Positions 39,511 through 60,989 of a stretch of 64,000 nucleotides of DNA are shown here, piece after piece (the first letter of the stretch is position 1; the number at the start of each line of letters is the position of its first letter). A program made the translations under genes and the position numbers. The notes below the pieces were generated by a model. That model was not told where the DNA came from and searched no databases. It saw only the letters and a list, made by a program, of their open reading frames with translations. This stretch comes from Flavobacteriaceae bacterium UJ101. Its GTDB lineage: Bacteria > Bacteroidota > Bacteroidia > Flavobacteriales > UJ101. Where the stretch lies: assembly GCA_001880285.1 (NCBI GenBank), contig CP016269.1, positions 124,001 to 188,000 on the forward strand, written 5' to 3'.

Positions 39511-40695
39511 TTATTCATTTAAGACTTCTAAAATAATCTTGCATCCTATTTCAATTTCTTTCTTCGTTATGGTTAATGGAGGGGTAATTCTGAGACATTC
39601 CCCAGCAAACAAAAGTAAGAATACAATCAAGCCTTTTTCCATACATTTTTGAATGAATTCTAAAACATATTCTTTTGATTCTAATTCTATTGCTATCATT
39701 AATCCTTCACCTCTAATGGACTTTATTTTTGGGTGTTTTAATAATGATTTAAACAAAATCGCCTTCTCCTCTACTTCATTCATATAAGAAGTATGTAACA
39801 ATTCTTTTAAAGTAGCATGTGCGGCTGCCGCAATAACAGGATGTCCTCCAAAAGTTGTAATATGCCCCAACATAGGTTTACGTTTTAAACAATCCATTAT
39901 TTCATAAGAAGACATAAACGCTCCAATTGGCATACCACCTCCCATACCTTTTCCCATAACAACGATATGAGGTGTAACCTTATATTTTTGAAAAGCAAAT
40001 AGATGACCTGTCCGTCCAAAACCAGGTTGAATTTCATCTAAAATCAATAATGCCCCTACTTCATCACAACGATCTTTGACTTTCTTTAAATAATCTTTTT
40101 CAGGAACAATAAAACCTGCTGCTCCCTGAATGGATTCTAAAATGACAGCTGCTGTTCTTTTTGTGATTTTTTTTAAATCTAACTCGTTATTAAACTTAAT
40201 AAAATTCACATTAGGAAGCAAAGGACGATAAGCTTGTTTCTGTTCTTCATTTCCCATAATAGACATCGAACCATGTGTATTACCATGATAAGCTTTTTCT
40301 GCCGCTATAATCTCATCTCTTCCTGTATAACGTTTTGCTAACTTTAAAGCCCCTTCAATAGCCTCTGTACCCGAATTGGTTAAATATGTCGTTTCTAAGC
40401 CCTCTGGTGTATGCTCTGCTAATAAATGGCATAAGGCTAACGGTTCCTCTTGTACATATTCACCATAAACCATTACATGCATATAGCGATTAACTTGTTC
40501 TTTAACAGCTTCCACAATTGCAGGATATGAATGTCCTAAAGTATTAGCAGAAACTCCTGCAACAAAATCTAAATAGGATTTACCATCCTTTCCGTAAATA
40601 TAATTGCCTTTAGCATGGCTAACTTCAAAGGCTGAAGCAAAATCGGTAGTTTGTGCTTGAAATTTAAAAAAGTTATTTTGATTTAATGTTTTCAT
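39511..40695 (-). CDS. Class III PLP-dependent aminotransferase
   Basis: The 394-residue enzyme has YLDFVAGVSANTLGHSYP, TNSGTEAIEGALKLAKRYTG, LILDEIQPGFGRTGHLFAF and the Schiff-base lysine in IVVMGKGMGGGMPIGAF. The family includes acetylornithine, ornithine and 4-aminobutyrate aminotransferases; the amino donor cannot be decided. It overlaps the OstA-like gene by 23 bases, so the two are translationally coupled. Confidence 0.87.
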   Translation of the reverse strand: MKTLNQNNFFKFQAQTTDFASAFEVSHAKGNYIYGKDGKSYLDFVAGVSANTLGHSYPAIVEAVKEQVNRYMHVMVYGEYVQEEPLALCHLLAEHTPEGLETTYLTNSGTEAIEGALKLAKRYTGRDEIIAAEKAYHGNTHGSMSIMGNEEQKQAYRPLLPNVNFIKFNNELDLKKITKRTAAVILESIQGAAGFIVPEKDYLKKVKDRCDEVGALLILDEIQPGFGRTGHLFAFQKYKVTPHIVVMGKGMGGGMPIGAFMSSYEIMDCLKRKPMLGHITTFGGHPVIAAAAHATLKELLHTSYMNEVEEKAILFKSLLKHPKIKSIRGEGLMIAIELESKEYVLEFIQKCMEKGLIVFLLLFAGECLRITPPLTITKKEIEIGCKIILEVLNE

Positions 40696-42514
40696 GATTT
40701 TCTTCTAATGTTACACCTACTGTATCATAAAAAAAGTATTCAGGTAATGCAGGACCTTTTGGAAGATCTGAACGATCATCTTTCGGCTTTTCTTCTTCTA
40801 GTGGTTTTTCTTCCTCCTTTTCACTAGATTCTTGTATTTCAAGTTCTTTTAATTCTTCTTCTACTATATTTTTCGAAACTTGCTTTTGAGCAAACTCAAC
40901 ATCTTCTGTAACCGTTTGAACATAGTCTAAAAAGGCTTGCTTGTCCGCAAACATTTCTTTTCCTCTCCAAGTAAATCCTTTTAAATACTTATCTTCATCA
41001 AAAATCTTCTCTTCTGGAGAGAGAATGGATTTTGTCCCACCCATACACGAAATCTCTTCCATTTCCTTATTTTGAATATAAGCATTAATATAGGCACAAT
41101 CTGAACGGTTAATTCCTATCCTACTCTGTGGTTTTCCATCTTTCTCTTCTTCATCTGCATAGATTAATGACTGTGCATTTCCTTCTACATGAATAAAATC
41201 AATATTATTCTTTGCATCACGAAAGGTAGCATACATAAAACGACCTTTTATTTGGTTGTATTCTTTTTCATAAATTGAATCTACTTTACTTAAAACCATT
41301 GCATTACCCATTACAACAGTAGAATCTATTTTATTTTCAATTGAAAAAGCACGAATTGTATCTCCCGTAATTTGACTCTCTCCATACCACAAAATCGGAT
41401 CTTTATACAATTCCATTATTCCAGTTTTATTATGATAAATTAAAGAATCTGCTTTAGCCTGACCGTCTACATTGTATGTTCTTGCTTTTGTAAATCCTCT
41501 AATAGTATAGGTGGAATCAGGATGCTGAACCCCTTCAATTCGTTTTGCATGAAAATAAGCAGAATCGGTTCCTTGTGCTTTTGCAGCATAAGCCCTGCTA
41601 TATAAAAAAACGGAATCTTTCTTTAAAGTAGGAATTGTAGAGCGGAAATATTCTCCATGATCACTTTTCATACGAATTCGTTCCAAAGGTCTTTCAACAC
41701 GAACGTTTCCATCTGCTTTTCCGTATCCAATTTTTTGATCAAAATACAATTCATCACCTTTTAAAGTATTTCCATCATAATGCAAACTTCCATTCTTGGT
41801 AGATTTTGAAATTAAGGTTCTTGTATTATAAGTTCCTTCTTCTGTAAAAACAAAATCTCCTGGATTATCATTATCCTCTATCGTTGTATTTCCTAAAAAA
41901 TTAACATCTTTTGTTTCAGGAAAGTATATTAAATGAGGTGAATTTACGATAAAGTTCTTATCACCTTTGTTATTAACATTAGTAACAATGTTCACATCTT
42001 GCAAAAATTCTGCACGATTGGGTGTTACATAGTAGGTTCCTATTTTACTGACCATCGTATTATCCTCATCATGAACGGTTCCCCAATTATCATAATAGGC
42101 TTCGTTTTTTACACGATCATAAAATAATTCCTGTGTTTCTAAGGTAAGTTTTCTATTTTTTAATACAACATTTCCTCTTGATCTTGAAAATCGCGTGACA
42201 CCATTGTAATCCAGGTAATCGGAGTCCATAAAAACACTATCTCCCATATTAACCTTTACATTACCAAAAGCCTCAAAATACTGTGCTTTTTCATTGAAAA
42301 CCGCACTATCACATTTCATAGTACTTCCTTGATGCTTGAATACAACAGCAATAGAATCTGTTGCAAATATCAAATCAGGATATTGTTCTTTTAGCTCTAC
42401 TAAAGCAGCATCCATTTCAATAGGATCCTTCTTTTTCTGGAGCTTTTTGGGATTTTGTTGAGCAACTAAAAATGATGCTAAAAATATGTAAATAAATAGG
42501 ATCTTACTCCTCAT
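40673..42514 (-). CDS. OstA-like (LptA/LptD-N family) periplasmic protein
   Basis: The 613-residue protein starts with a signal peptide ([20 protein letters not shown]) and contains repeated LptA-type beta-jellyroll units recognisable as [41 protein letters not shown] and [13 protein letters not shown] Glu/Lys-rich, low-complexity C-terminal tail follows (about residues 550-600). Proteins with OstA domains carry LPS across the periplasm. The start at 42514 overlaps the Fur-type gene end by 11 bases. It is an LptA analogue, not the full LptD barrel. Confidence 0.82.
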
Positions 42515-42974
42515 TATTCTCTTTCTGCGATTCATCAATTCGTTTTCCATAGAAATATAACGAATGACTTTCAATTTTCACGCCAAAAACTTCTTCAATA
42601 GTAGCTTTAATTGACTGAATTCTAGGATCACAGAATTCAATTACTTCTCCTGTATCTCCTAATATCACATGATCATGTTGTTTATTGAAGAAAGATTTTT
42701 CATAATGCGCCTGTGCATTTCCAAACTGATGTTTTCTTATCAATTTAGCATCTAATAATAATTCAATGGTATTGTATATCGTTGCACGACTTACTCTATA
42801 TTTCTTTTCAATCATTTTAATGTACAAATTATCTACATCAAAATGTTCATTCACTGAATATATTTCTTCTAAAATAGCATAGCGTTCTGGTGTCTTACGA
42901 TGCCCCTTTTCCTCTAAATAAGCCGTAAAAACATTTTTTACTAATTCGAATTTTTTTCCTTTAACTGTTTCCAT
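42504..42974 (-). CDS. Fur-family transcriptional regulator
   Basis: The 156-residue protein has the winged-helix DNA-binding part [31 protein letters not shown] ... [14 protein letters not shown] and the metal-site segment KQHDHVIL. The CxxC pair that normally binds structural zinc after HDHxxC is replaced by GDTGEV, so only the regulatory metal site is obvious. It could be Fur, PerR or Zur. The start at 42974 (METVKGKK) is an ATG with upstream codons unlikely to be used. It leads an operon with the OstA-like and aminotransferase genes. Confidence 0.88.
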
Positions 42975-43040
42975 AATAATTAGAACAAATATAGTTAATA
43001 TTCGGGACAATTAGCCATAAGATTTTCCTATAAACGTATA

Positions 43041-50479: not shown

Positions 50480-51292
50480 ATGAAAAAAATAGGGATATTA
50501 GGTTGTGGATGGCTTGGAGAACGTTTAGCAAGTTATTTGTTAGAAATGGATTACCATGTAATCTGCACTAATTCTACTTCTTCTAAACAAAAAGAAATTC
50601 GTTCTAAAGGAATTCCTCCATTATTCCTTCGTTTTTCCACTAAAAAATCTATGGATTTTTCTAATGAATTTACAAAAGTTAAAAAAGAATTTGAAACATG
50701 CGATACGGTTATAATTAGTATTCCTATTTCAAAAAAGGATGATAAAGCCAATACCATACAATTTGAAAACATTATTCATTTTTTAAGTAACAACACGCAC
50801 CAACAATTATTTTTCTTTAATTCTACTCGAATTTACCCTTCTACCAATATGCTTATTGATGAATCTTTTGAAAATAAAATGCTTTTAGATTCTCCTTTTT
50901 ATAAAACAGAAATTCAATTGCAGAAAGCATTTCCTTCGATCAATATTCTACGGCTAGGCGGTCTTTTTGGTGATGATCGTGTTTTTATGAAATATTTTTC
51001 AAATAAGGTTTTACAAGATGGGCAAACACCTGTGAACCACATTCATTATCGTGACATTTGCTCTATCATTCATAAAATGACACATGAAAACCACAATCAA
51101 ATGATTTTCAACTTAGTAGCTCCACTACATCCTTCTAAGGAAGACGTTATCAAAAATCAAAGTAATCAATATGATTATGAAAAACCTTCTAAAATAGCCT
51201 ACAACAAAATTCCATATAAAATTATTTCTTCTCAAAAACTGATTCAGGAATTAAACTATTCTTTTATTTTTCCTAATCCCGAAACTTTTTAA
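50480..51292 (+). CDS. NAD(P)-binding protein of the atypical SDR type
   Basis: The 270-residue protein starts MKKIGILGCGWLGERLASYL, a Rossmann GxGxxG motif, and continues with TVIISIPISK and FFFNSTRIYPS. The catalytic YxxxK pattern appears only as YKTEIQLQ, so it is an atypical extended SDR like YeeZ. No substrate can be assigned. It is probably co-transcribed with the helicase and ends exactly one base before the convergent flavin-reductase gene. Confidence 0.72.
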   Translation: MKKIGILGCGWLGERLASYLLEMDYHVICTNSTSSKQKEIRSKGIPPLFLRFSTKKSMDFSNEFTKVKKEFETCDTVIISIPISKKDDKANTIQFENIIHFLSNNTHQQLFFFNSTRIYPSTNMLIDESFENKMLLDSPFYKTEIQLQKAFPSINILRLGGLFGDDRVFMKYFSNKVLQDGQTPVNHIHYRDICSIIHKMTHENHNQMIFNLVAPLHPSKEDVIKNQSNQYDYEKPSKIAYNKIPYKIISSQKLIQELNYSFIFPNPETF

Positions 51293-52123
51293 TCAAAGTA
51301 ATACTTGCCAGGCTTCTTCAACTTTCTTTTCAGCTAATAATTCTTTTGCTTTTTGATGTTTTTCTATTATAGATCTATCATTAGCCTCTTTCTTACTTGG
51401 TATTTTTTCTACATTAGCCAGCATAGCCAAATCATTTCCTGATAAAATTGTACTCTCACGAATTTCTTTAGGCAATTGATCAAAACCAACACCTAATGCT
51501 GCTAAAGGTTTAGGAATAGTAAATAAAGACGCATCAAACGTACTATTATAATACATACCTCCCATTCTACCTACTAAATCCATTTTTAATGGATCTATAT
51601 TTCCTTCTTCATTTAAAACTTCCTCTTTAATATGGAATTTAACTACTTCACAAATCACCAAATTACCTGCTCCACCTTGATTTCCTAACTGAATTACTTC
51701 ATTTACTTTACATTCAAAAGCAACTTTTGATTCTCCTACACGTGGAGGCTTAACATTATCTGAATTTACTTGTGTAAATCCTGCTTTCTCAAATTCATTA
51801 ATTCCCTCAGCATATTCTGTACTTGATAAAGACATTTGTTGCACAATATCATATGAAACAATATTGATCACAACTTCTTTTGTCTCCAATACATTTTCTA
51901 AAGTATGTTTTGTAGTATTATCTTTAACTCTTCGTGCTGGAGAAAAAATCATGATCGGTGGGTTAGCACTAAAAACATTAAAGAAACTAAAAGGACTTAA
52001 ATTTACATTTCCTTTTTCATTAATAGTACTTGCTAAAGCAATAGGTCTAGGAGCTACCGCTGTTAATAAATAGCCATGTAAAGTACGTGTTTCTAATTCT
52101 GATGGTGTAAATGATTTATACAT
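51293..52123 (-). CDS. Flavin reductase-like FMN-binding protein
   Basis: The 276-residue protein has a flavin-reductase domain with RPIALASTINEKGNVNLSPFSFFNVFSANPPIMIFSP, KEVVINIVSYD and FECKVNEVIQLG, plus a C-terminal helical extension with KHQKAKELLAEKKVEEAWQVLL. Members of this group supply reduced FMN or act as flavoprotein oxidoreductases; the partner is unknown. The start at 52123 (MYKSF) is an ATG. Confidence 0.82.
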   Translation of the reverse strand: MYKSFTPSELETRTLHGYLLTAVAPRPIALASTINEKGNVNLSPFSFFNVFSANPPIMIFSPARRVKDNTTKHTLENVLETKEVVINIVSYDIVQQMSLSSTEYAEGINEFEKAGFTQVNSDNVKPPRVGESKVAFECKVNEVIQLGNQGGAGNLVICEVVKFHIKEEVLNEEGNIDPLKMDLVGRMGGMYYNSTFDASLFTIPKPLAALGVGFDQLPKEIRESTILSGNDLAMLANVEKIPSKKEANDRSIIEKHQKAKELLAEKKVEEAWQVLL

Positions 52124-52129
52124 CTTCAA

Positions 52130-52705
52130 TTTATTTTGTTCTCTGAATAAAGATAGAATAATTTTATCTTAGTATAAAATATTAATTCATTTTACATTCT
52201 ACTCAATAAAAAAATACGCAGTTCATCGAAAAAATGATAAAAAAATAATTTAAGTATTATTTTAACTACACTTTTAATAAAACACACTATAAATCCAAAC
52301 CTAAACACAAATATAACCATTTAATTATCAGTAAATTAAATTAAAAAACATTAATTTCACTTATTTTTATAATACTTTCTTCTACTTTTACCCCCCCTTT
52401 TTATATAGCATTATATTTATCTTAAAAACAGTAGAAAAGATCTAAAAACCCTTGTTCAAAAGATATGCTTTAAAAGAAAATCCCTTTTTATATAAATTTA
52501 TCTTTATCCTAAAAAATCTATCTTTTTAAGTTTTAAAAACTATAAAGACAAAGTATTAAAAAACTATTAACCAACACCATACACATTTATTAAAATTTAC
52601 TTGATTTATACTTTTTCTTCAATCTTATAGCTTATATATGTTACTTATGTTACATAAGCATTTTTTTTTCTAAAGCAATTTTGTACTTAGTTTGAAACAC
52701 ATGAA
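52130..52705. other. 576-base non-coding region before the QVGI-protein operon
   Basis: The region is strongly AT-rich with stops in all frames and no gene that I can support. It holds a C7 tract (52391-52397), rare in such sequence, and near its right end two overlapping signals at 52637-52658. A long 5' region of this kind suggests a regulated promoter. Confidence 0.6.
52637..52658 (+). promoter_or_regulatory. Candidate operator before the QVGI-protein operon
   Basis: TATGTTACTT (52637-52646) is followed by the palindrome CTTATG-TTA-CATAAG (52644-52658). The element is centred about 55 bases before the start codon at 52706. TATGTTACTT also occurs, read in the gene direction, in front of the opposite operon (58763-58772). 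Confidence 0.45.
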
Positions 52706-53599
52706 ATGAAAAAATTATCTGTACTAAAATGGAAAGAAAATACACAAGCGTACATAAGAATATCACGCTATGTATACAAGTTTAAAATCTTTATTACTAT
52801 TATGATTATTGTAGTATGTCATTATTCATTAAAAGGTCAAGTTGGAATTAGTAGTACCAACACAAAAGAAATCATTCATAAGAATGCTATTTTGCAAACA
52901 TTTGATACTGACAAGGGGCTTATTTTACCTAAAGTTGACTCTAACTCTTACTTACCTTATTACAATCCTTCAGCATCAGATCTTTATGATGATGATTCAA
53001 GTATGAAAGGAATGATCATGTATAATAAGAAGGACAAAAGTATTTACCTTTATAAAGGTACTATATGGGAAAATTTAAAAACTACTCCCATATCTCATCT
53101 AGATCAATTATCAAGATTTGTGGGAAAAGATGGTGATACAGAAACCATTGTTTGTGTATTAGCATGTGGCGGTCCTAAATCAGAAAAATACGCTGGCACA
53201 AAAAACACCTTAAACAATGCACATATTCAACATAATTCAAATTATAAAGAATTTAATGTAACAGAATCTGGATTATATGAAATATCAGCACGAGGTGTTG
53301 CTAATTCAGGAAGTGCATTAAGTACTTTTGAAGCTTTTCTTACTTTACAAGAAAAGAAAAAAGGAGATCGAAAATTTGTAGAAATAGCCAAATCTAAATT
53401 TAAAGCAGAAGATTTTCTTGGTATTGGTGGGGCTAGTAATTTAGGTACTACAGTAAGTGCCACATTATATTTAAATCCTGAGGATAAAATTCGAATTCAA
53501 TTTGGGGTTTCAGGTATAGGTGTCGGAGGTGGAGCTACATCCGTATCTAATGAACACAATAGAAGAATTCGAGAAATAACTTTTAGAAAACTAGATTAA
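52706..53599 (+). CDS. QVGI-type secreted protein with jelly-roll-like C-terminus (first of three paralogues)
   Basis: The 297-residue protein has a long N-terminal region with one hydrophobic helix (ITIMIIVVCHYSLKGQ) as signal, then QVGISSTNT, a linker with LPYYNPSASDLYDDDSSMKGMIMYN and IYLYKGTIWENL, a CVLACGG cysteine pair and a C-terminal beta domain (FNVTESGLYEISARGV ... LYLNPEDKIRIQFGV ... REITFRKLD) that resembles the C1q/TNF jelly roll. It is exported; surface or extracellular placement and function are inferred. Two paralogues follow in tandem. Confidence 0.75.
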   Translation: MKKLSVLKWKENTQAYIRISRYVYKFKIFITIMIIVVCHYSLKGQVGISSTNTKEIIHKNAILQTFDTDKGLILPKVDSNSYLPYYNPSASDLYDDDSSMKGMIMYNKKDKSIYLYKGTIWENLKTTPISHLDQLSRFVGKDGDTETIVCVLACGGPKSEKYAGTKNTLNNAHIQHNSNYKEFNVTESGLYEISARGVANSGSALSTFEAFLTLQEKKKGDRKFVEIAKSKFKAEDFLGIGGASNLGTTVSATLYLNPEDKIRIQFGVSGIGVGGGATSVSNEHNRRIREITFRKLD

Positions 53600-53610
53600 T
53601 CAATTATAAT

Positions 53611-54444
53611 ATGAAATCATTTATATCTTTTATACTTGGAATTATTTGCATTGTACCTATTACAATCAAATCTCAAGTTGGAATTGGAACGAATACACCT
53701 CACAATAAATCAGTGTTAGATATTAAAAGTGGTAAAAACAAAGGGGTTATTATAGGTAAATCTCAGAATTTAGAAACTTTACCACTTTACGATAAAAGTC
53801 AATCCGATTTTTATCAAGATGACCCATCTATGGAAGGGATGATTATCTATGTTATAAGTGAAAAGGAGATTTATCTTTATGATGGCAAAAAGTGGATTCC
53901 AGCAGGAACAATTCAAAGTAATTATAATCCCAATATAACTCGAATTGGAACTTCTAAATCAAAAACAGCTGTATGTATTATTAATATTTGTGGATCTCCT
54001 TCATTAGAATTTGATCGTGTAAATGATCCTAATTTATATTTTTCAGATGGATTAGGTATCACACAAGGCAGAACTGATAATACTTATGTTGAAATTAAGG
54101 AAGATGGTTTTTATAGAATATCTCCTTCTATAGCTGTAGATGGTGGTGGTGTTAGTCTATTGGGTTCAAAAATAAGTTTACAAATATTAGGGAACTTGCT
54201 TACAGAAGATAATCGCTATCGAGGTAACCAAGTATTAGGAAGATCTTCTCTTAATACAATAGGATTACTTCTTGAAGTTGGAACCAGTCTTGATATCAAT
54301 TTTTCTCAAATTCAATACTTACAAAAGGGTGATCGAATCTCAATAGAATTTGATGTTGATGCATCTGGAATATCTTTAGGAAGCGGCTTTTCCAATGAAA
54401 CATATTATGATAGAACATACTTAACTATTGAAAAATTACAATAA
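53611..54444 (+). CDS. QVGI-type secreted protein with jelly-roll-like C-terminus (second paralogue)
   Basis: The 277-residue protein has a cleavable signal (MKSFISFILGIICIVPITIKS), the bacteroidete N-terminal motif QVGIGTNTPHNKSVLDI, a linker LPLYDKSQSDFYQDDPSMEGMIIY and IYLYDGKKW, the cysteine pair CIINICG and a jelly-roll-like end (VEIKEDGFYRISPSIAV ... LQKGDRISIEFDV ... LTIEKLQ). It lies 11 bases after the first paralogue and one base before the third, so the three form one operon. I do not know a described function. Confidence 0.78.
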   Translation: MKSFISFILGIICIVPITIKSQVGIGTNTPHNKSVLDIKSGKNKGVIIGKSQNLETLPLYDKSQSDFYQDDPSMEGMIIYVISEKEIYLYDGKKWIPAGTIQSNYNPNITRIGTSKSKTAVCIINICGSPSLEFDRVNDPNLYFSDGLGITQGRTDNTYVEIKEDGFYRISPSIAVDGGGVSLLGSKISLQILGNLLTEDNRYRGNQVLGRSSLNTIGLLLEVGTSLDINFSQIQYLQKGDRISIEFDVDASGISLGSGFSNETYYDRTYLTIEKLQ

Positions 54445-54445
54445 A

Positions 54446-55243
54446 ATGAAACATATTATACTAATAGGTTTATCCTTATTTCTTTATAACATTAATGCAC
54501 AAGTAGGAATTAATATAGACTCTCCACACAAAAATGCTATGTTGCATTTAAAAAACTCAAATGAACATGATAAAGATAAATCTAAAGGATTTATACTACC
54601 AAATGTCCAAGATATAACTAAACTACCTTTGTACAGTAGTGCTGAACCTGATTTATTTAAAGATGATCCTACTATGGAAGGGATGATTATGTATCAAGAA
54701 GACACAAATGAACTACTCGTCTATGACGGAGAAAAATGGGTAGCACAATTATTAGACATTCCCTCTTTAGGTAAAAAAACACGTGTAAAATCTACAAAAG
54801 AAGTTATGTATGCCTGTGGAATTAATATATGTGGAGAAGCCAATATTCCATTCTATTTAAAACCTGATGACGATACTACCCAATACTTTGATCAATTAGA
54901 ACTTCATCCTAACACTTTTTTTACTATAAAAGAAACAGGGTTATATAATATATCTGTTGGAATGGAAGTAAGTGTAAATGGAGTCACTTTATTACCTAAC
55001 GTTCTATTGAAAGTCTATAAAGATGATAACATGATTATGTCAAAAAATACTCAAGCAAAAGTTTTCATAATTGGAAGTGATTCAAGATCACAAGTAAATT
55101 ATACTTTAAGTTTATTTTTAAAACAAGGTGAAACACTTCATTTTGCAGCTTCCTCTCCTATTGATTCAGGGCTAACTATTGGTTCTGAAACCTATATCAA
55201 AAGCTCTGATCTTACTACTGTATTGTTTGAAAAAATATACTAA
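54446..55243 (+). CDS. QVGI-type secreted protein with jelly-roll-like C-terminus (third paralogue)
   Basis: The 265-residue protein (start at ATG 54446; an upstream TTG overlaps the previous stop) has a signal peptide, QVGINIDSPHKNAMLHL, the shared linker LPLYSSAEPDLFKDDPTMEGMIMY, LLVYDGEKW, the cysteine pair CGINICG and the beta C-terminus FTIKETGLYNISVGMEV ... LFLKQGETLHFAAS. The three paralogues share order and spacing of all these blocks but differ widely in the beta domain, as expected for surface-exposed parts. Confidence 0.77.
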   Translation: MKHIILIGLSLFLYNINAQVGINIDSPHKNAMLHLKNSNEHDKDKSKGFILPNVQDITKLPLYSSAEPDLFKDDPTMEGMIMYQEDTNELLVYDGEKWVAQLLDIPSLGKKTRVKSTKEVMYACGINICGEANIPFYLKPDDDTTQYFDQLELHPNTFFTIKETGLYNISVGMEVSVNGVTLLPNVLLKVYKDDNMIMSKNTQAKVFIIGSDSRSQVNYTLSLFLKQGETLHFAASSPIDSGLTIGSETYIKSSDLTTVLFEKIY

Positions 55244-55254
55244 CATATAATTCT

Positions 55255-55342
55255 ATATTATTAACTACAAAAGAGGTTATGACCCTTCATTATACACCCC
55301 CCTTAAATTTTCCCTTTCATAACTTCTTGTAGTTAATAATAT
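55255..55342. repeat. Long imperfect inverted repeat before the Crp/Fnr gene
   Basis: ATATTATTAACTACAA (55255-55270) pairs over 16 bp with 55327-55342, and GTTATGA (55276-55282) with TCATAAC (55317-55323) over 7 bp, with a small bulge between and a 34-base pyrimidine-rich loop holding a C6 tract. No T-run follows, so a simple terminator is unlikely. Confidence 0.6.
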
Positions 55343-55468
55343 TTCATTCATGATACAAATTATCAAGTTTACCGAAAAAAAAATAACACCATTTACTTAT
55401 TGTTTATTTTATAAAATAGATTTCCTATTACCTATTACCCGAACTAAAAAAGATAGTAAATTATTAAA

Positions 55469-56134
55469 ATGAACACCACACACATAGAACATCTTTTTCA
55501 AAAAGATTTACTTATAGAAATAAAAAAAGTATCTTTTTGGGAAAAATATAACAAAAATGAACTCTTAATTGATATAGGTGAAAAAATTACACACCTTCCC
55601 ATTGTTCTTAAAGGCTCTTTAAAAGTTTTATTAGAAAATGAAAAAGATGAAGAAATATTACTTTATTATTTATATCAAGGAAAAACGTGCTCTATCATTC
55701 TAAATTCATCTATAACTCATTCTCATAATGAGATTAAAATCATATGTTTAGAAGATTCAGAAATTCTTTTTGTCCCTTTGGAATATATAGAGCCTTGGTT
55801 CTCTAAATTTCACTCATGGCGATCTTTTGTTTTAAATAACTTCAACCTACAATTAAAAGACCTATTGAAAACCATTGATAGTTTAACTTTTCGTAATATG
55901 GAAGAACGTGTTTATAAGTATTTAAAAGATCAAAGTACTCTTTTAAATCAAACTAATCTTGATATTACTCATTGTCAAATAGCTCAAGATTTAAATTCTT
56001 CACGTGTTGTTATATCTAGAACCCTAAAAAAATTAGAACGTAATAATTTGATATATCAAACACGAAATAAAATAAAACTTACACGGAAATATTATGGGAT
56101 CATTTTCTTTTTTAGCCTAATAAAGTGGTTTTGA
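55469..56134 (+). CDS. Crp/Fnr-family transcriptional regulator
   Basis: The 221-residue protein has an N-terminal cyclic-nucleotide-binding-like beta domain (THLPIVLKGSLKVLLENEKDEEILLYYLYQGKTC) and a C-terminal winged helix with LDITHCQIAQDLNSSRVVISRTLKKLERNNLI, the Crp HTH. The phosphate-binding cassette of CRP is not conserved and there is no FNR cysteine cluster, so the signal is unknown, as for many bacteroidete members. It lies between the two convergent QVGI operons and probably controls them. A terminator hairpin overlaps its stop codon. Confidence 0.88.
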   Translation: MNTTHIEHLFQKDLLIEIKKVSFWEKYNKNELLIDIGEKITHLPIVLKGSLKVLLENEKDEEILLYYLYQGKTCSIILNSSITHSHNEIKIICLEDSEILFVPLEYIEPWFSKFHSWRSFVLNNFNLQLKDLLKTIDSLTFRNMEERVYKYLKDQSTLLNQTNLDITHCQIAQDLNSSRVVISRTLKKLERNNLIYQTRNKIKLTRKYYGIIFFFSLIKWF

Positions 56135-56152
56135 AATAAAACCACTTTATTT
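56119..56152. terminator. Terminator overlapping the end of the Crp/Fnr gene (bidirectional)
   Basis: AATAAAGTGGTTTT/AAAACCACTTTATT is a 14-bp perfect stem with a 5-base loop; the stop codon lies in the loop region. Confidence 0.85.
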
Positions 56153-56174
56153 ATAACATATTTTAATCTATATA

Positions 56175-57416
56175 TTAATAATCTGTAGTAGACAATACAC
56201 ACCAAGCATTATGTGTATCAGTCAAAATACCGGCAGTAGCTGCATTTCCAACTGACTGTATTTCATAAGTATTATCTGATGTAGATGAATTAGCTGACCA
56301 ATTTGTATTACTACTTAAAACGGCTGTATTATTTAAAAATGTTGCACTATTTTCGATAGAATTTATTTTTATCAAATCTAAAGCATTAGCCGTTGTTGTT
56401 GAACCATCTAATAAAGTAAAACTAATTCCTTCACATTGTGTTTGAACTTCTGAAGTAGCTACAGCATCACTTGTCAATGAAAAGCCTGTTGTTGTTTCTG
56501 TTAAAATAAAAAAGTTCCCAGACGTATCAGTACCCCATGCATAACTTTGTGAAATAGGACCTATTACAACCGTTTCTGCTGTTCCTGTTGCAGGTGTTGT
56601 ATCTGCTGGTGTCACTTCAAAGACAATATATTGTCCATCATAAGAGGCATTATCTAACTTTAAAGTTGAATTTGTTGCTCCTGATATTGCTACAGGTGAT
56701 GAACCATCACTATTGGCTGAAGTATACCATTGAATTGAAGTAGCCCCTTCAGCATTTTCACCAACATAAGCATAACTTCCTCTTAACTCACCTCCCAACT
56801 CTGTAATACCATCAACTGACACAAACTTTGCTTTAGGACTACCATCATAACTCAAAACCTCTTCTTTACTAAAAGGAACAGCCCAATAACCACTAAAATT
56901 ATGAACTCCCTGAATAGTAACTGTTTCTCCTGAGTTTAAGGATGTAATTATTGCCCCATATTGAGAAGGTTTAATTGTATCTCCTGAAGTTGGAATAAAA
57001 GTAACCGTTCCTGTACCAATATTCTTAATCGTTATTTTTTTTCCTCTATACCTTGCTTCATCTAATGGCGATGGAAGTGTGATCGAAATATTAGTATTTG
57101 AATTTACAATAAGTGTTTCATCATCAAAACCTATTGTATAATCTGCTGTAATTTCTTCCACTTTTTGTGTAAAAAATATTTTTCCATCACGAACAGCCAA
57201 TTGATCACCATTTAAACTCAATCCAGTTAAATCATTGGTACTACTAACAAATAAAGCTTTTGTTGGAGGAGTTGTTGAAGTTGGAAGATTATCTAACCGA
57301 ACTTCTCCAGCAACATGCAAAGTTGCTTGTGGATCTGTTGTCCCAATTCCTACTTGACTGTATAATGTAAAAGGTAAACTTAATGCAATACTATATATTA
57401 TTCTTTTTATCTCCAT
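56175..57416 (-). CDS. QVGI-type exported fibre-like protein, 413 residues
   Basis: After a signal peptide the mature part begins QVGIGTTDPQATLHVAGEVRLDNL, then YTIGFDDETLIVNSNTNISITLPSP ... GKKITIKNIGTGTVTFIP, a repeated beta unit seen in tail-fibre and adhesin-like proteins, followed by an Ig/fibronectin-like middle (SYAYVGENAEGATSIQWYTS ... VFEVTPADTTPA) and a Ser/Thr-rich end with two cysteines. No type IX secretion C-terminal signal is evident. It is the last gene of the - strand operon and unlike its two neighbours has the added C-terminal domains. Confidence 0.72.
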   Translation of the reverse strand: MEIKRIIYSIALSLPFTLYSQVGIGTTDPQATLHVAGEVRLDNLPTSTTPPTKALFVSSTNDLTGLSLNGDQLAVRDGKIFFTQKVEEITADYTIGFDDETLIVNSNTNISITLPSPLDEARYRGKKITIKNIGTGTVTFIPTSGDTIKPSQYGAIITSLNSGETVTIQGVHNFSGYWAVPFSKEEVLSYDGSPKAKFVSVDGITELGGELRGSYAYVGENAEGATSIQWYTSANSDGSSPVAISGATNSTLKLDNASYDGQYIVFEVTPADTTPATGTAETVVIGPISQSYAWGTDTSGNFFILTETTTGFSLTSDAVATSEVQTQCEGISFTLLDGSTTTANALDLIKINSIENSATFLNNTAVLSSNTNWSANSSTSDNTYEIQSVGNAATAGILTDTHNAWCVLSTTDY

Positions 57417-57419
57417 TTC

Positions 57420-57959
57420 TTAAAAACTTTTAAATAAAACATACCAATTCCCGTCTGAATTAGCCTGAAGTACAGCACTTTGTCGCCCTGGAATTCTAGT
57501 AAATTCTCCTGTTAAATAATTTTCTAATACTTGCCCTGACGTGGTAACTAAGTTAAGTGCTCCATTTGCCCATGCAATAATCGATACAATTCTTCCTGCC
57601 TGAGTAGAAGCATCAGGTAAAGTCACCGTCTTATCACCTAAACCTGAATTAGAAATTGTATTTGCATAATTATTCAAACTTACACTACTTTGAAAATTCT
57701 TAAATGAATTTTTAAAACGTAATACATTATCATCACCTATAATCATATGATCTGAATAAAATCGAAAATCACCTACATCATCATTATTATCAATATAAAA
57801 AAAACGAGAACTAGAAAGTGATGACTCATTATTTAATGTTTCTATTCGAACCCCTCCTGTCACATGTAAATCTTTTTGTGGATTTGTATTCCCTATACCT
57901 ACTTGTGCTGTAACATAATGACTTATTAATAAAAGTATAAAAAGTATATTTTTTTCCAT
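57420..57959 (-). CDS. QVGI-type exported fibre-like protein, 179 residues
   Basis: Signal peptide, QVGIGNTNPQKDLHVTGGVRIETLN, a short spacer, then the beta unit ISNSGLGDKTVTLPDASTQAGRIVSIIAWANGALNLVT and a tryptophan ending GNWYVLFKSF. The body matches the N-terminal half of the 413-residue neighbour. It starts 11 bases after the first gene and ends 3 bases before the third. Confidence 0.7.
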   Translation of the reverse strand: MEKNILFILLLISHYVTAQVGIGNTNPQKDLHVTGGVRIETLNNESSLSSSRFFYIDNNDDVGDFRFYSDHMIIGDDNVLRFKNSFKNFQSSVSLNNYANTISNSGLGDKTVTLPDASTQAGRIVSIIAWANGALNLVTTSGQVLENYLTGEFTRIPGRQSAVLQANSDGNWYVLFKSF

Positions 57960-57970
57960 GTCCTTAGCTT

Positions 57971-58519
57971 TTAATTGTTATAATGTATTACTTCCCAAAC
58001 CCCACTAGTTGCGTTTGCACGTAACATAGCAGATTCTGTCGATAACACCTTTGTTAAATTCTGACTTGATGTTAAGCGAATATTAGCTGTAGAAGATAAT
58101 GTTATATTCCCCTCACCAAAAGCTTTAAATATTAAAGTTCTTCCCTTATTTTCAGCCGAAGTAGGATCAGGTAATGTAACGGTTACATTAGAACTTCCTT
58201 TAGATAAAATAGTTTCATCGTTTGCTGTAATTGTATAATTGGCTGTAACTTCTTTAATATTTCCTTGTACATATAACTGTCCTGATCGATTAGCTAATTG
58301 TACTGTATTCGTTGAATATTTTGTTAAATCCCCATTTGAATCGACCAAAATCCAATTTCCTGTAGATAAATCAGTATTAGCTGGTGAGGTATCAACCCTC
58401 ATAGTTCCTTTTACATGAAGTGTATTTTGTGGTAATGTACCTTCGTCTATATTTATCCCTACTTGCCCAAATATAGGTATACTCATTACCGTTAAAAATA
58501 ATCTTTTTAATTTTTTCAT
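57971..58519 (-). CDS. QVGI-type exported fibre-like protein, 182 residues
   Basis: Signal peptide (MKKLKRLFLTVMSIPIFG), QVGINIDEGTLPQNTLHVKGTMRVDT, then EVTANYTITANDETILSKGSSNVTVTLPDP and GRTLIFKAFGEGNITLSST, ending GVWEVIHYNN. The VTLPDP unit followed by a Gly-rich strand is common to phage tail fibres and bacteroidete surface proteins. It is the first gene of the - strand operon and is preceded by a 376-base region with palindromes. Confidence 0.7.
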   Translation of the reverse strand: MKKLKRLFLTVMSIPIFGQVGINIDEGTLPQNTLHVKGTMRVDTSPANTDLSTGNWILVDSNGDLTKYSTNTVQLANRSGQLYVQGNIKEVTANYTITANDETILSKGSSNVTVTLPDPTSAENKGRTLIFKAFGEGNITLSSTANIRLTSSQNLTKVLSTESAMLRANATSGVWEVIHYNN

Positions 58520-58686
58520 TATGATAGTTTATTATGGTTTTCTAAATTACGTCTCCATCACATTATTAAATAATATTTTAGCTGTATATCTTTTTTAAAA
58601 AGGTCAACAAAAGAAATTAATAGATGAAATTTATTATAAAATATTATTAAAATCTATAACATCTTGTTCTCCGAATAACGCATTAT

Positions 58687-58708
58687 AAACATGACATATA
58701 TCATGTTT
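58687..58708. promoter_or_regulatory. CRP-like palindrome before the - strand QVGI operon
   Basis: AAACATGA-catata-TCATGTTT has perfect 8-bp arms and a 6-base spacer, the geometry of CRP sites (TGTGA-N6-TCACA) with CATGA in place of TGTGA. It lies about 170 bases before the start codon of the 58519 gene, in a 376-base gap (58520-58895) that otherwise holds only further palindromes and the peptidase terminator. Confidence 0.5.
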
Positions 58709-58740
58709 TGACGTAAATATATGATACATGTAATAATATA

Positions 58741-58757
58741 GTTCACATTATGTAAAC
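58741..58757. promoter_or_regulatory. Second palindrome in the same intergenic region
   Basis: GTTCACATTATGTAAAC is a 17-base palindrome with one mismatched pair. TATGTTACTT on the - strand (58763-58772) follows nearby and recurs before the + strand operon. Confidence 0.4.
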
Positions 58758-58831
58758 CATCAAGTAACATACTTTTATATATAAAGATTATACAATACTT
58801 ATAGCAAATAGGTATAGGAAAGTTTTAATAA

Positions 58832-58869
58832 ACAAAAGGCTAAATATGAAAACATATTTAGCCTTTTGT
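58832..58869 (-). terminator. Terminator after the M13 peptidase gene
   Basis: A 17-bp perfect stem (58832-58848 with 58853-58869) with an AAAA loop lies just beyond the peptidase stop; the - strand continues TTTATTA. Confidence 0.85.
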
Positions 58870-58895
58870 TTTATTATATAATTATTAATAAAGGA

Positions 58896-60989
58896 TTACC
58901 AAATCTTTATTCGATCATCTTCTTTTTTAAACATTTTATCACCTTCTTTAGTATCAAATGCTTTATGGAATCCATCATGATTTTCTAACGGACCAGTTGC
59001 ACGATACATGCCTGGAGCATGATAATCTGTTTTTATTTGATCAACTAAAGCATCATCTCTAAATTTAGTTCTCCAAATTGTAGCCCATGAAACAAAGAAA
59101 CGTTGAGCTGGAGTTAAATTATCTATTAATTCTTTTTCATCCATTCCTTTATCCTTCAAATACATTAACAAAGCATCATAAGCAACACTCGTACCTCCTA
59201 AATCAGCAATATTTTCTCCTAAAGTTGAACGTCCATTAACATGAATATCATTTCCTTTATCTTTCAGAGGTTGATATGCATCATACTGTGCAACTAACTG
59301 ATCTCCTAAAGCATTAAACTTCTCACGATCTTCTTTAGTCCACCAATTTTTTTGATTACCCTCTGCGTCAAATTGTGATCCTGAATCATCAAACCCATGT
59401 GAAATTTCATGACCAATCACACCTCCTATTCCACCAAAATTAATGGCAGCATCTGCATTAAAATTAAAAAAAGGTGGTTGTAAAATTGCTGCAGGGAAAA
59501 CTATTTCATTTTTTAAAGGATTATAATAAGCATTTACCATTTGAGGAGGCATTCCCCATTCTCCTTTGTCTACTGGCTTACCATATTTACTTCTATTATC
59601 TTCATTATACCATTTAGAAGCATTCTTCATATTTTGATAATAACTTCCTCCTTTTTCAGATGAAGTAATTTCCATTGAAGAGTAATCTTTCCATTTATCC
59701 GGATACCCTATTTTAACTGTAATTTTATCTAGTTTTTCAAACGCTTTCTTTTTTGTCTCGTCTGACATCCATGTTAATTCTCCAATGTGTTTTTTATATG
59801 ATTTAAATAAATAATCTACCATTTCTTTTGCACTTGCTTTTGCTTCTGGAGGAAATACGTCAGCGACATAAACTTCTCCTACCGCTTCTCCAAGAACACC
59901 ACTAACTGCTGATAATGCTCTCTTTTTAATCGGTCTCATTTCTTTGACTCCTCTTAATTCTTTTGAATAGAAATCAAACTTTTGTTGTTCTAATTCCATA
60001 TTTAAAAGACCTGCTGCACTATTGAAGTCAATCCATTTCAAATACGACTTTATTGTTTCTAAAGGTGTATCATTTAGTAATTTCTCTAACCCTTTAAAAT
60101 ACTCTAAATCTGTTACAATTAGTCCTTCTACATTTTCAATGCCCGAGTTTGCAAAAAATGCTTTCCAATCTATTGAAGGTGTTAACTTTTTCAAATCCGC
60201 TACTTTATACGGATTATTAGTCAATTCATTATCTCTTGACTTCTCAATTGGAATCATATTTTGAGCTAATGCCTTTTCAAAAGCTACAATCTTTCCTGCT
60301 TCTTCTGTTGCTTCTTTTTCAGGCTCTCCCAAATTTTGCAACATACTCGCTACATACTTCTGATATTTTTCAACTTTATCTTTTGCATCATCTTTTTGAT
60401 AATAATCTTGATCCAATCCTAAATCTCCAGCGTTTAGATAGATCGTATTCATACTACTATTATTCATATCAGCATAAACATAATACCCTAAAGGAGATCC
60501 ATAACTTTCTTTTTGAGCTTTTGCCAAGTACTTCTGTAAATCTTCTTTTGTTTGGATTGCATCTATTTCTGCCAAATGTGCTTTTATAGGCTCTATTCCT
60601 TGCTTATTTCGATTTTCAGTATTTAAAACTGATGCAAATAAATCTGCTATTTTTTTAGGAGTTGACCCTTCTTTAAGATCTTGACTCATTGCTTTTTCTA
60701 AAACAGCTAAGGTTACAGAATCATTCATTTCTATCAGTTCATTAAATGATCCCCAACGACTTTTATCATCAGGTATTTTAGCTATTTTTTCCCACCCTCC
60801 GTTTGAATAATTATAAAAATCTTCTTGAGGTTTCACTGACTGATCCATCATTGCCATATCCAAAGCTGGCACTTGAGCTACTTTATCTTTTACTTCTGCT
60901 TCGCTTTTTCCTTCCTGCTTAGGTTGATTACACGAATAAAAAGATAATATTGCTCCTAAAATCACTACAGATTTGTACGTTAATTTCAT
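58896..60989 (-). CDS. M13-family zinc metallopeptidase lipoprotein (PepO/neprilysin type)
   Basis: The 697-residue protein has a signal peptide with lipobox SFYSC (Cys 20) and so is membrane-anchored. The M13 C-terminal domain shows NAYYNPLKNEIVFPAAILQPPFF, the zinc motif HEISH within GHEISHGFDDSG, the third zinc ligand in ENIADLGG and the C-terminal IKIW. It cleaves peptides in the periplasm or at the surface. Full length. An ORF of unknown function lies just upstream on the same strand, 14 bases away. Confidence 0.94.
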   Translation of the reverse strand: MKLTYKSVVILGAILSFYSCNQPKQEGKSEAEVKDKVAQVPALDMAMMDQSVKPQEDFYNYSNGGWEKIAKIPDDKSRWGSFNELIEMNDSVTLAVLEKAMSQDLKEGSTPKKIADLFASVLNTENRNKQGIEPIKAHLAEIDAIQTKEDLQKYLAKAQKESYGSPLGYYVYADMNNSSMNTIYLNAGDLGLDQDYYQKDDAKDKVEKYQKYVASMLQNLGEPEKEATEEAGKIVAFEKALAQNMIPIEKSRDNELTNNPYKVADLKKLTPSIDWKAFFANSGIENVEGLIVTDLEYFKGLEKLLNDTPLETIKSYLKWIDFNSAAGLLNMELEQQKFDFYSKELRGVKEMRPIKKRALSAVSGVLGEAVGEVYVADVFPPEAKASAKEMVDYLFKSYKKHIGELTWMSDETKKKAFEKLDKITVKIGYPDKWKDYSSMEITSSEKGGSYYQNMKNASKWYNEDNRSKYGKPVDKGEWGMPPQMVNAYYNPLKNEIVFPAAILQPPFFNFNADAAINFGGIGGVIGHEISHGFDDSGSQFDAEGNQKNWWTKEDREKFNALGDQLVAQYDAYQPLKDKGNDIHVNGRSTLGENIADLGGTSVAYDALLMYLKDKGMDEKELIDNLTPAQRFFVSWATIWRTKFRDDALVDQIKTDYHAPGMYRATGPLENHDGFHKAFDTKEGDKMFKKEDDRIKIW

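Follow-up and report, generated by a model that had tools for sequence, protein, structure and literature searches.

Compact exported QVGI proteins around a Crp/Fnr-type regulator gene in Flavobacteriaceae bacterium UJ101: candidate trimeric adhesive tips with predicted TNF/C1q-like and phage spike-type domains

Introduction

What are six small exported proteins doing in two convergent gene sets with a single regulator gene between them? The question is raised by a 64,000-nt stretch of Flavobacteriaceae bacterium UJ101 (CP016269.1), called the window here, whose positions are used as coordinates throughout; the UJ101 genome itself is G000 in our numbering. On the plus strand, three genes (w1-w3, the triad) are followed by the gene for a Crp/Fnr-type regulator, and these converge with three minus-strand genes (m1-m3; Table 1). 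A sequence-only reading of this DNA had described six exported proteins beginning with QVGI in this layout, and the open reading frames, the leaders and the palindromes upstream were all confirmed. Because the gaps within w1-w3 and within m1-m3 are only 1-11 bp, each set is considered an operon, and pairwise identities of 34-35% (w1-w3) and 25-37% (m1-m3) indicate that each consists of paralogues.

We consider the locus to encode two sets of compact, Sec-exported adhesive trimers resembling the MAT fibres of Bdellovibrio. They probably serve as tips for adhesion or recognition, at the cell surface or close to it, and we give this reading a probability of roughly 60%. No literature on the locus itself was found, judging by titles and the starts of abstracts. 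The sequence-only reading knew of no described function for such a structure, a statement that has to be revised, as the MAT superfamily is a described functional analogue (PMC10769870).

The shared head

All six proteins carry a hydrophobic leader followed by QVGI, with the Q at residue 19-22 in five of them and at residue 45 in w1, whose real start may be an internal ATG. A Gln immediately after a leader of the signal peptidase I type is the feature associated with the Q-rule of Bacteroidetes, under which most substrates of Sec and signal peptidase I are left with Gln at their N-terminus, which is then cyclised (PMC5837995, PMC10653852). The feature is present in 6/6 proteins, so that the leader is probably cleaved before Gln in each of them; signal peptidase I would cut before the Q, which would then be expected to cyclise.

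The residues that follow the Q point to a structural role. The stretch VGIGTxxPxxxLHV corresponds to the capping-loop motif of the Bdellovibrio MAT fibre Bd3182, and PDB entry 8ojn was matched by profiles A2 (E 0.0043) and A5 (E 0.013) at two stretches 96 residues apart. According to PMC10769870, 8ojn is Bd3182, its capping loops are R656-H669 and F752-H765 (96 apart), and the loop consensus, V-G-G/N-...-P-X-X-X-L, is reported from several MATs and from MyRF. Both matched stretches are thus the capping loops of Bd3182, and MyRF was the second match of profile A5 (E 0.56). We propose that the stretch after the Q is a capping loop of trimeric beta-helices, in which VGI(G/N)..P..L would begin a trimer stem. 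The identification is good for the minus operon and looser for the triad, because the strict motif occurs in m2 and m3, alone among the six, the spacing in w2, w3 and m1 deviates, and w1 lacks the proline.

Related heads are found elsewhere, before a C1q domain that exceeds the Pfam cut-off (L165) and before collagen-like repeats that remain below theirs (L163). At the former place, in another Flavobacteriales family (L165, 699-2131), head-plus-C1q proteins stand in tandem, one over the Pfam C1q cut-off and one 0.1 bit under it.

QVGI had also been taken as a signature of this locus. That idea was abandoned, as such heads occur at 54 distinct places in the UJ101 genome after merging the 33 found with w2 and the 33 found with the m1-m3 profile, the weakest few of which may be chance because the searches were run to E = 1. 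Exported proteins of the QVGI type are numerous in this genome and in its relatives, and none of the libraries used has a curated family name for them; if QVGI is read as a Q-rule terminus joined to the capping loop of a trimeric fibre, many of them gain a testable structural role. Weak Pfam, NCBIfam and PHROG matches, below cut-offs or uninformative, were dropped, as were pectate lyase matches of the profile searches, which were gapped and low-scoring.

Predicted folds of the two sets

Behind the head, the two sets appear to carry different domains. The AlphaFold model of w2 (39-row alignment, mean pLDDT 75.2) contains at residues 105-277 what is well supported as a ten-stranded TNF/C1q jelly roll, newly identified here: Foldseek matched it to 4-1BBL (E 4.8e-8) and VIA to CD40L (Z 15.5, 2.0 A over 127 residues), with the phi812 spike knob (Z 14.5) and the C1q domain of Caprin-2 (Z 13.9) in the same list. 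A sequence profile compared with the PDB gave TNF ligands as 10/10 of the listed matches (E 0.11-0.86). For w1-w3, none of the Pfam families C1q, TNF and BclA_C exceeded its cut-off, the BclA_C match of w3 being 15.1 bits against a cut-off of 38 (E 0.021). By homology, w1 and w3 are likely to be TNF/C1q-like in their C-terminal parts as well. In known cases, proteins of this fold are trimers and often bind glycans or receptors.

In m3, the model is confident at residues 81-185, and the region 82-187 is well supported as a beta domain of the phage spike/baseplate type, also newly identified in this analysis. Its structural matches include the Pa223 capsid spike (Z 12.6, 1.9 A over 96 residues), the Solidus tailspike (11.6), the KP1 baseplate (9.7), CBA120 TSP4 (9.6) and T4 gp9 (8.8), followed by scores of 7.5, 5.0 and 3.5; domains of T4 gp9/gp10 type are thus among those it resembles. 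Against a viral model library it gave 155 matches at E <= 0.001, and several of the 50 listed were named as tail, fibre or collagen-like proteins. An Ig-like match at m3 residues 199-281 was weak and below cut-off. Homology to m3 suggests the same beta domain in m1 and m2. These fold matches agree with the sequence-only reading, which had likened the minus-strand proteins to phage tail or adhesin parts.

Taken as a mechanism, the triad proteins would consist of a stem and then a predicted jelly roll, and the minus-operon proteins would have the beta domain of phage spike/baseplate type, with an extension in m3. The triad genes would work as one unit, whose products possibly form a heterotrimer, and one operon or both may be under the control of the neighbouring Crp/Fnr protein. 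Trimer formation and ligand binding would follow from the predicted folds; adhesion, surface display and regulation are likewise put forward as expectations for this locus.

Comparison with known systems

Among the closest described systems is the MAT superfamily of Bdellovibrio bacteriovorus, which is displayed on the surface and has a TNF-like tip that can bind glycans (PMC10769870). As described there, MATs have a common head behind the signal peptide, in several cases the capping-loop motif, variable tips that include TNF-like domains and phage-type parts, and many members per genome. These traits recall the UJ101 proteins, the strict motif being confined to m2 and m3. By contrast, a typical MAT has about 1,000 aa and a common, beta-rich N-terminal domain of about 130 aa directly behind the signal peptide, while the proteins described here have 179-413 aa, the motif at the mature N-terminus and genes in operons. 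We do not claim membership, as that N-terminal domain is the defining part of MATs and the PDB holds MAT tips only.

Other known systems are comparable in part. The C-terminal domains of BclA and F-BclA of Bacillus spores (PMC11952670) are exported bacterial tips of TNF/C1q fold, but the UJ101 proteins have no collagen stalk, and the BclA_C match of w3 is below cut-off. The TNF-like lectins PLTL and BC2L-C N-domain (PMC12914763) share a bacterial TNF fold and candidate glycan binding, although the abstract describes neither a QVGI head nor a three-gene set. Phage spike, tailspike and T4 gp9/gp10-type domains share the fold of m3 residues 82-187, whereas m3 is an exported bacterial protein outside any phage gene context.

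Conservation of the triad

Profile A1 matched 12/296 Flavobacteriales genomes at E <= 1e-10, a lower bound, since scoring was limited to the top 8 candidates of each genome, and all but UJ101 are Chryseobacterium. Complete triads were present in 9 of these 11 Chryseobacterium genomes, the nine being the ones read; in the other two (G064 and G128) the match is confined to the N-terminal region of a longer reading frame. A further scan added 12 named Chryseobacterium loci, 11 of them with an intact triad; in the remaining one (L091) the reading frames of the triad are broken, and so are those of its neighbours. Altogether 23 loci with 24 triads were read, corresponding to 21 distinct loci and 22 triads because two pairs (L060/L086 and L061/L090) are apparently the same contigs. 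Of these distinct copies, 21/22 are intact, the gene order is identical in all, two chromosomal sites are used, and at one locus (L063) the whole triad is duplicated. The recurrence of the triad in Chryseobacterium is newly shown here. In a class-wide search of 295 genomes, full-length triad proteins were found in UJ101 alone and the N-terminal part in 13 genomes.

Gene order in other genomes was one of the points on which the sequence-only reading had staked its idea, and for the triad that order is kept. The whole convergent locus was not recovered elsewhere: neither the regulator nor the minus operon stands beside any of the Chryseobacterium triads read. The m1-m3 profile matched 2/296 genomes at E <= 1e-12, UJ101 included, and 41/296 at 1e-6, mostly by the head alone; longer relatives with the beta domain of m3 occur in Chryseobacterium, with one more in UJ101 (L159, L160, L162), and the three-gene fibre operon was found in UJ101 only in the searches made.

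The best BLAST hits of w1-w3 were position-matched, with a small margin for w1 (4.5e-23 vs 1.0e-21). In the tree, w1 grouped with position 1 (support 94/90) and w3 with position 3 (72/68), and the grouping of w2 with position 2 was not recovered, yet not rejected (p-AU 0.189); a single clade of the three UJ101 genes had a p-AU of 0.034. The tree thus supports position 1 and leaves positions 2 and 3 open, and in a larger tree the second-site Chryseobacterium triads had no clear placement by position. One old three-gene unit is favoured because of the position-matched BLAST hits, the tree support for position 1 and the p-AU of 0.034, and position-wise orthology of all three genes falls short of proof.

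Vertebrate C1q consists of three paralogous chains (A, B and C) of one fold encoded by adjacent genes. The triad is alike in having three paralogues of one predicted fold from adjacent genes, and differs in having no collagen stalk and in that its heterotrimer would be a predicted one. It is tempting, if rather improbable, to see in the triad a bacterial version of the C1q build, with three non-interchangeable chains of TNF/C1q fold from one operon forming one heterotrimeric tip, a unit older than the split from Chryseobacterium, and a stalk perhaps supplied by the phage-fibre-type operon. A conserved three-gene set of TNF/C1q fold would be a clean system for asking whether bacteria build heterotrimers of this kind, and for which ligands.

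An aminotransferase gene, an OstA-like gene and a Fur-type gene flank the second-site Chryseobacterium triad (L062-L067), which lies between the first two. The same trio is found in the UJ101 window at 39511-43010, about 10 kb from the triad.

The regulator and the convergent layout

The product of the regulator gene is assigned to the Crp/Fnr family by a cyclic nucleotide-binding fold (cNMP_binding PF00027, 30.1 bits, cut-off 27.5, E 4.8e-7) and a Crp-type helix-turn-helix (HTH_Crp_2 PF13545, 35.4 bits, cut-off 27, E 1.1e-8). By its adjacency, it is possible that it controls both operons. The layout may be functional, or two QVGI operons may have come to lie together by chance in a QVGI-rich genome. 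On the latter alternative, which we hold to be about an even call, the two operons are unrelated neighbours and the targets of the regulator lie elsewhere; sulfur stress genes, acted on in trans, would be one example. This alternative bears on the layout and leaves the fold reading intact.

Several observations fit a chance meeting: the 54 places with QVGI heads, the triads elsewhere that have neither regulator nor minus operon, the shared upstream element that does not exceed controls, and the neighbours of the regulator's relatives. The family is present in 152/296 genomes at E <= 1e-18, and in 10/19 neighbourhoods read (L167-L185, neighbours judged from translations) its members adjoin sulfur-type genes, namely MBL-hydrolase, TauE-like/YeeE-like or thioredoxin/rhodanese genes; no QVGI gene was seen beside them in the 19. 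Against chance, the usual neighbour is absent from the UJ101 genome, where PF04143 had no match, and at 3/8 places a Crp locus has a QVGI gene within 2 kb, with 0.49 expected and a fraction of 0.011 of random placements reaching this (0.026 for 3 kb and 0.074 for 5 kb), statistics that include the discovery locus.

The upstream regions are equivocal. A 15-bp palindrome, read by eye, lies upstream of the triad (52644-52658) and a 22-bp palindrome, AAACATGA-N6-TCATGTTT, upstream of the minus operon (58687-58708). A pattern shared by the two regions occurs at the two operons only, but it was derived from them; 552/1000 shuffles scored as high in a loose alignment, and with a stricter score 219/7271 unrelated upstream pairs were as high or higher. 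A shared operator was consequently rejected as proof of co-regulation, there being no excess over controls, and is kept as suggestive. Of the regulator and palindromic upstream regions claimed in the sequence-only reading, the palindromes exist, whereas the regulator is tied to the operons by adjacency and belongs to a widespread family often found beside sulfur genes elsewhere, and the upstream element common to both operons is equalled or exceeded by those 219 pairs.

Three other places in the UJ101 genome may be recorded. At one, five tandem Crp/Fnr-type regulator genes surround a single 596-aa QVGI protein in an unusual cluster (L069, 3144-9635; G000:C1, about 2905-2912 kb). At another, a Crp/Fnr-type gene is convergent with the gene of a 243-aa QVGI protein, a small-scale version of the layout (L071, 3878-5373). 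At the third, six tandem QVGI-type genes (one QVKI) lie directly behind a two-component kinase/response-regulator pair (L072, 2116-8770; G000:C1, about 1410-1417 kb).

Surface tips or soluble lectins

Some results weigh against adhesive trimers at the surface. The fold evidence consists of single-chain predictions, the TNF match is weak at the level of sequence, and m3 is of low confidence beyond residues 81-185. Additionally, w1 has no motif proline, and w2, w3 and m1 have another spacing. No surface anchor domain was recognised in the six proteins with Pfam and NCBIfam, and the same libraries gave no C-terminal sorting domain of the type IX secretion system (T9SS) at E <= 1.

The proteins might instead be soluble lectins, secreted or periplasmic, whose head only aids trimerisation and whose jelly rolls are set free to bind glycans. 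Their small size and the lack of a recognised anchor would agree with this, as would the description of a bacterial TNF-like lectin, PLTL, in the abstract of PMC12914763. Nevertheless, the head has the capping-loop motif of a fibre and related heads precede collagen-like repeats, and we regard soluble lectins as unlikely beside adhesive or recognition tips.

Phage or mobile origin

Phage tail parts are assembled in the cytoplasm and have no export leaders. The UJ101 proteins have leaders on 6/6, and their window neighbours, judged from translations, are housekeeping genes, a setting that a prophage or injection-particle tail would not show. No phage match was found for m1 or m3 in 50,697 records, nor any plasmid match for w1 or m1, and a viral-contig scan gave four matches, all within residues 1-46, that is, leader and head; a prophage or mobile origin was rejected on these grounds. 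Despite the likeness of the m3 beta domain to phage spike and baseplate parts, it is highly improbable that these are domesticated tail fibres that help to build a phage-like or contractile-injection particle.

Features of the locus

For w3, the ATG at 54446 was used, giving 265 aa, since the listed TTG at 54428 would overlap w2.

Table 1. Genes and other features of the locus in window coordinates
Feature	Position	Strand	Description
Candidate regulatory element	52637..52658	+	Upstream of triad; shared element 52637-52657 and 15-bp palindrome 52644-52658
w1	52706..53599	+	Exported QVGI protein, 297 aa, triad position 1; C-terminal part probably TNF/C1q-like by homology to w2
w2	53611..54444	+	Exported QVGI protein, 277 aa, triad position 2; residues 105-277 predicted TNF/C1q jelly roll
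w3	54446..55243	+	Exported QVGI protein, 265 aa, triad position 3; C-terminal part probably TNF/C1q-like by homology
Hairpin	55255..55342	+	Between triad and regulator; 16-bp perfect arms, stem extended further
Crp/Fnr-family regulator	55469..56134	+	221 aa; tied to operons by adjacency only
Hairpin	56119..56151	none	Between convergent transcripts; possible shared terminator
m3	56175..57416	-	Exported QVGI protein, 413 aa; residues 82-187 predicted phage spike/baseplate-type beta domain
m2	57420..57959	-	Exported QVGI protein, 179 aa; strict capping-loop motif; putative beta domain by homology to m3
m1	57971..58519	-	Exported QVGI protein, 182 aa; putative beta domain by homology to m3
Candidate regulatory region	58687..58771	-	Upstream of m1-m3; 22-bp palindrome 58687-58708 and shared element 58748-58771

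An Rfam search of 51000-60000 matched nothing. The hairpin between the triad and the regulator was rejected as a repeat element, as no second full copy was found in the UJ101 genome; it has a C-rich loop and a predicted energy of -25.6 kcal/mol (z -8.8).

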